A stretch of DNA of 64,000 bases from a virus. Each line of letters opens with the position of its first letter. The first letter of the stretch is position 1. The stretch covers positions 1-64,000 of the IMG/VR virus record IMGVR_UViG_3300021962_008382. The stretch is one strand, 5' to 3'. Shown here piece after piece: positions 26,228 through 30,279 of the stretch. Under the pieces are notes generated by a model. The model was not told the DNA's origin and searched no databases. It worked only from the letters and a program-made list of their open reading frames with translations. The position numbers were made by a program, and so were the translations under genes.

Positions 26228-26401
26228 ATGTGCTGGTTGATTCTGTTGCCAAGTTCAACCAGCAAAACTCCGACTAATGCTTAAGCAGCAAGAGCCAGGT
26301 TATAAACGTCATCGTTTGCGTTTATTTTAAGTTTAGTTTTTACGTCTACTCTGACGATTCTCCACATGCCTTCAGTCGTCTGTCGAATCCAGAACAGCCC
26401 C
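26228..26401 (-). ncRNA. ssrA: Permuted tmRNA, coding (5'-half) piece
   Basis: Starts at 26401 with GGGGCTGTTCTGGATTCGAC, the near-universal tmRNA 5' end, including the D-loop-like TTCGAC. Next come a GACGA/TCGTC helix and the tag reading frame at 26281-26319: resume codon GCA, tag ANDDVYNLALAA, stop TAA. A 9-bp hairpin follows at 26232-26263. The 3' boundary is an estimate. The gene order is inverted: the CCA half is encoded upstream at 26453-26515, so the mature RNA must be two pieces. Confidence 0.9.
26281..26319 (-). other. tmRNA proteolysis-tag reading frame
   Basis: Thirteen codons including stop, encoding ANDDVYNLALAA. It keeps the AND start and the LAA end that ClpXP/ClpAP adaptors recognise in bacterial tags (E. 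coli ANDENYALAA), so tagged proteins should go to host proteases. Confidence 0.9.
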
Positions 26402-26452
26402 ATCAAATAACCTCTCAGCCGACCTTTCGGTATTCTACGGAGAGAGGCCATT

Positions 26453-26515
26453 TGGTGGAGCTGGGGGGAGTTGAACCCCCGTCCAAACTTCCTATTACAT
26501 GCTTCAACGAATACT
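26453..26515 (-). ncRNA. ssrA: Permuted tmRNA, acceptor (3'-half) piece
   Basis: Ends at 26453 in CCA. T-arm GGGGGTTCAACTCCCCC and acceptor strand CAGCTCC pair with GGGGCTG of the coding piece, giving a G3-U70 pair, the alanine identity signal. Upstream GAAGCATGTAATAGG resembles the same part of E. coli ssrA. A 51-base intervening segment (26402-26452, itself with a CCTCTC/GAGAGG stem) joins the two halves and is presumably cut out. The 5' edge is uncertain; a hairpin at 26518-26538 overlaps the stop of the structural gene. Confidence 0.9.
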
Positions 26516-26534
26516 ATATAACCATTATTTATGG

Positions 26535-27545
26535 TTATGCTGGCTCCGGTACCCCTTCCGGTAGTGTTATAGATGATGGAATACCAATAAGATTCATAAA
26601 ATCACAGAACGTAAAGGTAATCCAATCTACTAACGCACTTAAACCTATTGCATTAAAGAAAGAAGTTACTAAATTCATCCATTCTTGAATAAGCTTCTTA
26701 GGAAATTCAACAGCAAAGTTTCTAAGCGATTCTACAATTCTATCTATAATTCTTTCAGGATTAGTAATTTTATCTCTTATCTCCCCACCTATCATAGTGA
26801 GTACGTTAAAACCAGCAATAGTTAAATTCTCTAGTTGTTGTATCTTTTCTTGAGCAGTAGTTTCAAGATTGCTAAGTATGGAATCTATTAACCCTGGTAT
26901 GTCAATCACAGTAAGTGTCGGCAAGGCAGGTAGACCTAAAGAGTTCCACGTACTTTGAAATGTAGATATAAGTGTTCCTAGCTTCTGATAAAGTAAGTTT
27001 AATAAACCACCGTTAATTAAACTTACAAAATTAGACCATGCAGCTTCTACCTTTAATGCTAAACTATCATAACCATACTTACCAGTAAACGACTGGAAGG
27101 AACTTTCAATGCTAGAAATAAAGGTATCTATATCTTCAGCTATTTGTGCTTTGAGGTTCTGCACATATTCTTTATCTGTAAAGATCTTCACGATATCAAC
27201 AGTAATACCTAGAACATTGATAGACAGTGTTACCGGAATTACAGTTGATATAATCTCAATCATTTTAGCCATTACATAACCGTGAAACTCTTGAACAACG
27301 CGGGTCATTTTTGCTTCCCACTCAAACTCCGGGCATTCAAAGTTAATATAAAAGGGATCTGAAGACCCCATCGGGAAGTTACCCAAGGCTGATTCAATAC
27401 TGTCGAGCAGTTGCTGAACTTTGAGCGCTTCCTCTTCTAGCCCCTGAATAATGAGCTCAGACGGCAGTCGCGCTAAATCAACAAACGTATTTACTAAATT
27501 AGCTTTAGTTGGGAAGAACGTTGCTTGGCAGATTGGTTGTTCCAT
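26535..27545 (-). CDS. Probable structural protein, unknown family
   Basis: 336 residues, helical, amphipathic, Cys-poor, without signal peptide. Segments such as FPMGSSDPFYINFECPEFEW and the C-terminal GIPSSITLPEGVPEPA look like a virion or tail-associated protein, but I do not recognise the family. The start overlaps the ferredoxin gene by 41 bases and the stop lies in a hairpin next to the tmRNA acceptor piece. Confidence 0.6.
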   Translation of the reverse strand: MEQPICQATFFPTKANLVNTFVDLARLPSELIIQGLEEEALKVQQLLDSIESALGNFPMGSSDPFYINFECPEFEWEAKMTRVVQEFHGYVMAKMIEIISTVIPVTLSINVLGITVDIVKIFTDKEYVQNLKAQIAEDIDTFISSIESSFQSFTGKYGYDSLALKVEAAWSNFVSLINGGLLNLLYQKLGTLISTFQSTWNSLGLPALPTLTVIDIPGLIDSILSNLETTAQEKIQQLENLTIAGFNVLTMIGGEIRDKITNPERIIDRIVESLRNFAVEFPKKLIQEWMNLVTSFFNAIGLSALVDWITFTFCDFMNLIGIPSSITLPEGVPEPA

Positions 27546-30210: not shown

Positions 30211-30279
30211 TAGAAGTCTTAGAAGGAATCGAGCCTTCGTCTTCGCAGTTGCGTTGTTTTACCATTAAACTATAAAACT
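30211..30279 (-). pseudogene. tRNA-like remnant lacking its anticodon loop
   Basis: Acceptor AGTTTTA/TAAGACT, D-stem GTTT/AAAC and T-arm GAAGG/CCTTC all pair, but between D- and T-arms there are only about 18 bases, where CGCA-AC-TGCG folds into a loopless hairpin. About 7 bases that would hold the anticodon are absent. 3' end is CTA, not CCA. Its 5' end overlaps the stop of the lipoprotein ORF by 10 bases. Confidence 0.65.

Follow-up and report, generated by a model that had tools for sequence, protein, structure and literature searches.

A two-piece tmRNA gene with a conserved, exchangeable hairpin in its spacer in a T4-type phage

The DNA analysed here, referred to as the window, is a stretch of 64,000 nucleotides (positions 1 to 64,000 of IMG/VR record IMGVR_UViG_3300021962_008382), and the virus record as a whole comprises 158,915 bases. 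The locus had been attributed to a T4-type phage, and the record indeed carries head and tail genes of that type (major head protein, portal, tail sheath and terminase), the head protein being most similar (66%) to those of the T4-type phages Melnitz and Mosig. On the minus strand, at approximately 26512-26231, lies a permuted tmRNA gene that matches the whole of the Rfam model RF04321 (tmRNA_permuted), scoring 112.5 bits (cut-off 47) with E=3.8e-21 over 64 kb, far above chance. The original prediction had proposed such a permuted, two-piece tmRNA here, leaving the strand unnamed, and had suggested ARAGORN and the alpha_tmRNA covariance model as checks. ARAGORN calls a permuted tmRNA on the same segment, and alpha_tmRNA (RF01849) gives 58 bits over a cut-off of 50; beta_tmRNA (RF01850) gives 77.3 bits, below its own cut-off of 84, and the gene falls between the older Rfam subtypes (alpha, beta and cyano, RF01851).

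The layout is that of the permuted form, in which the CCA-bearing piece comes first and ends at 26453, followed by a 51-nt spacer (26452-26402) and then by GGGGCTG from 26401; the piece ends and the length of the gap had been predicted exactly. The acceptor piece (26453..26512, minus strand, its 5' end approximate), delimited by the RF04321 alignment and backed by covariation in the acceptor and T stems, comprises the 3' strand of the tmRNA helix P2, the T arm, CAGCUCC, A73 and the encoded CCA (26455-26453). The coding piece (26231..26401, minus strand), outlined with RF04321, RF01849, RF01850 and a cofold, starts with the 5' acceptor strand GGGGCUG (26401-26395) and contains the D-loop motif UUCGAC, the 5' strand of P2, the tag frame and a closing 3' hairpin (26231..26264, minus strand), whose 10-bp stem UGCUGGUUGA/UCAACCAGCA was read from the sequence and is also seen in the cofold. 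As anticipated, the acceptor strands GGGGCUG and CAGCUCC pair across the break (7/7 pairs, G3-U70 included), and an intact tag frame ending in LAA is present: ANDDVYNLALAA, followed by the stop codon UAA, at 26281..26319 on the minus strand, with a degron-like end. The resume codon, GCA at 26319, was placed by comparison with relatives, and ARAGORN prints the tag as VKTKLKIN-ANDDVYNLALAA. The full-length RF04321 match, the conservation of acceptor and T stems among relatives and the cofold all agree with the earlier view that every key element is intact. Judged from its sequence, the locus is almost certainly a two-piece tmRNA gene, and its product is very probably functional in infection.

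Comparison with relatives points in the same direction. A scan with a pattern for the permuted arrangement, in which CUCCACCA/GGGG was fixed, returned 39 viral stretches, all of them (39/39) called as permuted tmRNA by ARAGORN; conservation of acceptor positions 1-4 is inflated in this subset because these letters were fixed in the pattern. The acceptor stem was compared in 119 distinct permuted genes among the matches listed, nearly all viral: seven of seven pairs were found in 116 of them, G3-U70 was retained in 116/119, and paired changes occurred at acceptor positions 4, 5 and 6. RNAalifold, applied to 100 rows, recovered the T stem and the acceptor stem across the break, the latter with several pair types, and P2 less cleanly.

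Permuted tmRNAs in T4-type phages are already known (Melnitz/Mosig-type; PMC9004378) and Rfam models the gene form. According to a 2022 report, 53 phage genomes encode two-piece tmRNAs (50 of these genomes were obtained from marine or aquatic samples), and 17 of 47 contigs related to Melnitz have a permuted tmRNA (PMC9004378). The window gene resembles the RF04321 type in its permuted order, acceptor, T and D elements, G3-U70, CCA and tag frame ending in LAA. Melnitz (a Methylophilales phage) and Mosig (a Pelagibacter phage) likewise carry a permuted tmRNA according to RF04321, but their spacers (142 and 44 nt) have other sequences and their tags are different. A glutamine riboswitch is reported to accompany the tmRNA gene of Melnitz (PMC9004378), whereas no glnA RNA scored above the Rfam cut-off in the window. 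Permuted tmRNAs were also called by ARAGORN in the isolated phages Stenotrophomonas Moby, Xanthomonas X1 and Rb1, Pseudomonas PA_L9, Alcaligenes QDWS595 and Synechococcus BUCT-ZZ01, with RF04321 also giving the permuted form in Moby, X1 and Rb1; the tags and spacers of all these phages differ from those of the window. Gammaproteobacteria, the hosts of several such phages, as a rule have a one-piece tmRNA. Some records of isolated Pseudomonas, Alcaligenes, Stenotrophomonas and Xanthomonas phages contain permuted tmRNA genes that carry no tmRNA annotation (L042, 3940-4360; L043, 3840-4216; L231, 571-959; L232, 566-1016; L233, 567-995).

The segment between the two pieces had been described as an intervening stem. 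It does fold (predicted -20.9 kcal/mol, z=-3.45), but it is not a plain stem, and no other part of the gene is as strongly conserved in one set of relatives. Fold, covariation and conservation delineate in this 51-nt segment (26402..26452, minus strand) a hairpin, here named family A, with an outer stem P1 (arms at 26452-26442 and 26416-26406, minus strand, from fold and covariation) and a core UCCGUAGAAUACC-GAAA-GGUCGGCU (26441-26417, minus strand) that is conserved among copies. From the outside inwards, P1 is followed by a U/CU loop, the hairpin helix P2 (CCG/CGG), a fixed bulge UAGAAU, P3 (ACC/GGU) and a variable tetraloop. The spacer is 96% identical to those of four relatives (L164, L170, L174 and L175) in which the mature RNA is only 59-66% identical, and the two positions at which it differs from them pair with each other (C-G to U-A); the closest relatives in the mature RNA (L141, with 79%, L025 and L072) have unrelated spacers of 10-29 nt. 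Spacers are thus exchanged as units, given that near-identical spacers accompany divergent mature RNAs and close mature relatives have unrelated spacers.

Among copies, the core is invariant and P1 covaries: in seven distinct copies, 7 of its 11 pairs are changed on both sides, a covariation score reached by none of 500 shuffles, with slid controls scoring far lower. A covariance model of the hairpin gives 66-77 bits for true copies and at most 15 bits for noise over 945 kb, a gap that shows only a sharp family boundary because all true matches were training sequences. The hairpin is, on this comparative evidence, very likely under selection as RNA. Rfam tmRNA models do not describe it, and it is the conserved exchangeable spacer hairpin that constitutes the new feature here, the tmRNA gene itself being of a known sort.

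Searches for a described counterpart gave negative results. Rfam at permissive thresholds yielded nothing credible for 26452-26402 or for copies of families A and B (the latter discussed below) elsewhere (E<=10), nor was there a credible match on 12 loci at E<=3, and no known ribozyme model in Rfam matches the spacer. Spacers A and D gave no blastn match in isolate phages, core A was absent, with up to one mismatch allowed, from 369 genomes of one bacterial class, and no published description of such spacer hairpins was found in the literature searched, the coverage of which was incomplete. Two specific assignments were considered and rejected. The hairpin was not flagged as an intrinsic terminator, which would moreover be odd inside a precursor, and hammerhead and hairpin-ribozyme cores did not seem to fit by eye.

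The distribution of the hairpin was analysed with patterns in which one helix at a time was left free. Leaving P3 and the loop free, blind to P1, returned 30 contigs: 13 had ACC/GGU (14 including the window), all with a P1 of 8-11 bp, and the other 17 had a P1 of 0-2 bp. When P2 of the hairpin was left free in an equally blind test, 31 new loci were returned, 30 of which had a P1 of at most 3 bp and lay more than 60 bases from any called tRNA. Only the remaining one, L314, formed all three P2 pairs, through a paired change to ACG/CGU; it had an 8-bp P1 and sits between tRNA-His and tRNA-Asp. The core was also found in the 24-tRNA array of L171, where it is flanked by tRNA-Thr and tRNA-Asp. A few copies of the hairpins lie outside tRNA or tmRNA spacers (L168, L276 and L294), that of L168 being intergenic in a contig with a terminase-like gene. 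Just upstream of this last copy there is a 23-codon ORF, MWTSPSVSEMRFGFEVTMYVMNK (L168, 1051-980, minus strand), similar on visual inspection to the PQQ precursor peptide PqqA. No family A hairpin is present in the tRNA array of the window, and nothing similar was seen when the spacers of this array were read by eye. A further tRNA, absent from the ARAGORN list, was detected by Rfam at 30214-30279 of the window (minus strand, 51.2 bits).

Family A is one of several unrelated hairpin families that occupy the same tmRNA spacer position. Family B, CCUCUGCAGNAAUGUACG, is a GNRA-capped stem with a 3x1 loop and was found in 66 viral contigs, with 51 copies falling inside a tmRNA call, 11 next to a tRNA or tmRNA call (including L252 and L298, where the neighbouring tmRNA call is doubtful) and 4 elsewhere, among them a copy just before a start codon in L294. 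Its P1 also covaries (22 two-sided cells, with 0/500 shuffles as good), and blastn of spacer B in isolate phages gave only chance-level matches. Further spacer families are common to tmRNAs of low mature identity, as in L058 and L113 (spacer 92%, mature RNA 59%). Some relatives have spacers of only 4-13 nt, so the gene form needs no particular hairpin; spacers of 4-5 nt were noted in L064, L071, L121, L199 and others, L199 being a 4-nt-spacer permuted gene and a single case in the GTDB set. A tandem series of several long, perfect inverted repeats (L239, around position 700, minus strand) immediately precedes a tRNA-like sequence, and one of these repeats has the core of spacer family D in its apex.

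The occurrence of the tag type was evaluated with a pattern covering only the tag start (ANDDVY in context), with the acceptor and the tag end left free. At least 119 viral stretches were found, about 100 of which, among the matches listed, were called as permuted tmRNA. In bacterial and archaeal genomes the same pattern gave 1 match in 84,980, located in a one-piece gene (L049, 945-1299) with the tag ANDDVYALAA. The contig is short and belongs to a Methylococcus MAG, so that the gene may be that of a host or may have entered the MAG by mis-binning. Of the 24 distinct ANDDVY tags among the matches listed, 23 end in LAA and one in MAA, and this end is kept while the tag middle differs in sequence and length. 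RF04321 passed its cut-off in only 4 genomes of the bacterial class mentioned above, which is therefore a poor control for host tags.

Just upstream of the tmRNA gene, an octamer resembling late promoters, CATAAATA (T4/cyanophage type NATAAATA; 26526..26533, minus strand, from the sequence), overlaps the stop codon of the upstream ORF (26535-27545). The NATAAATA octamer was present at the upstream site in 19 of 142 distinct genes, compared with a frequency of 1.0% in control windows, and 13 of the 19 share one offset; we infer that CATAAATA may act as a promoter. As a separate observation, six ORFs of ~450 aa lie in a row in L045 (554-9406; 84.5-93.4 kb of its record), and the one scanned (554-1903) matches regulator-of-chromosome-condensation families.

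With these elements, a working two-piece tmRNA whose spacer hairpin serves as an exchangeable processing element is the explanation we favour for the whole locus, with a probability of around 60%. A single precursor, probably transcribed from the late-type promoter at 26533-26526, would be cut after CCA (26453) and before G1 (26401), and the two pieces would be held together by acceptor stem and P2 pairing. According to a review, the cutting of two-piece tmRNA precursors is 'probably' done by RNase P and tRNase Z (PMC3985003). The molecule would be charged with alanine by alanyl-tRNA synthetase via G3-U70 and, with the help of host SmpB, which would be needed since searches of the phage record and 12 related records turned up no smpB, could rescue ribosomes stalled during infection and add ANDDVYNLALAA, leading to ClpXP-type proteolysis; rescue and tagging, as well as the competition with host ssrA also put forward in the original prediction, are plausible roles for a phage tmRNA of this kind. 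The removed 51-nt hairpin may assist in parting one stable RNA from the next, either by offering a site to a nuclease or another protein or, with lower probability, by cleaving itself. A function in RNA processing has, for the hairpin taken separately, about even odds. The hairpin resembles tRNA and rRNA processing hairpins (e.g. RNase III or RNase E sites) in its location between stable RNAs and its long stem, but it has an invariant apical core and a bulge, neither of which such sites need. What speaks most against a strict processing role is that some copies lie outside tRNA clusters and that spacers elsewhere can be very short. More tentatively, the hairpins could represent a new class of RNA element, self-cleaving or recognised by a dedicated nuclease, which aquatic phages would pass in cassette form from tmRNA spacers to tRNA arrays and back, and which would separate stable RNAs without relying on normal host processing.

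Other explanations for the spacer have to be weighed against this one. The independent movement of spacers and mature parts, the identity of several spacer copies and the presence of other or tiny spacers in many relatives would also be expected if the tmRNA were an ordinary two-piece molecule with a functionless spacer that looks conserved only through recent whole-spacer recombination between phages; this seems improbable, as copies with different outer stems show paired changes around an invariant core, which is unlike neutral drift, and the sole variant of the hairpin helix P2 is a paired change located between tRNAs. It is somewhat less improbable, although still unlikely, that the end product is the excised hairpin, which would be released by tmRNA or tRNA maturation and bind a host or phage protein as a small RNA or decoy. 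With its invariant bulge and internal loop above an outer stem that is free to vary, the hairpin has the look of a binding site, and L168 and, for family B, L294 carry copies in transcripts of other kinds, but the finding of several unrelated families in the same spacer favours a shared local role over one partner.

The function of the tmRNA itself could also differ from the rescue proposed above. Rather than aiding translation, it might mainly disturb host quality control, by titration of SmpB or through a phage-specific tag, which would fit with ANDDVY tags being common in phages and nearly absent from bacterial and archaeal genomes, with the negative smpB searches, and with phage DS6A, whose tmRNA, reduced to the tRNA-like part, is said to resemble a tmRNA-inhibiting molecule (PMC4131195). 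A mere decoy, however, would have no need of a tag frame with its LAA end, and both are kept, so that we regard such a role as rather improbable. Prophages often contain partial ssrA copies that serve as attachment sites (PMC9004378), and by analogy the gene might be an inert passenger, whether as a pseudogene or as what is left of an integration into host ssrA; its completeness, its intact key elements, the strong constraint across relatives and the virulent-type, T4-like genome make this very hard to sustain.

The near-absence of the ANDDVY tag type from bacterial genomes suggests that phages keep a tmRNA lineage of their own, and do not borrow the gene repeatedly. The hairpin that we favour as a processing element, being located exactly in the tmRNA spacer and also between tRNAs, provides a short RNA with which to test how these precursors are cut.
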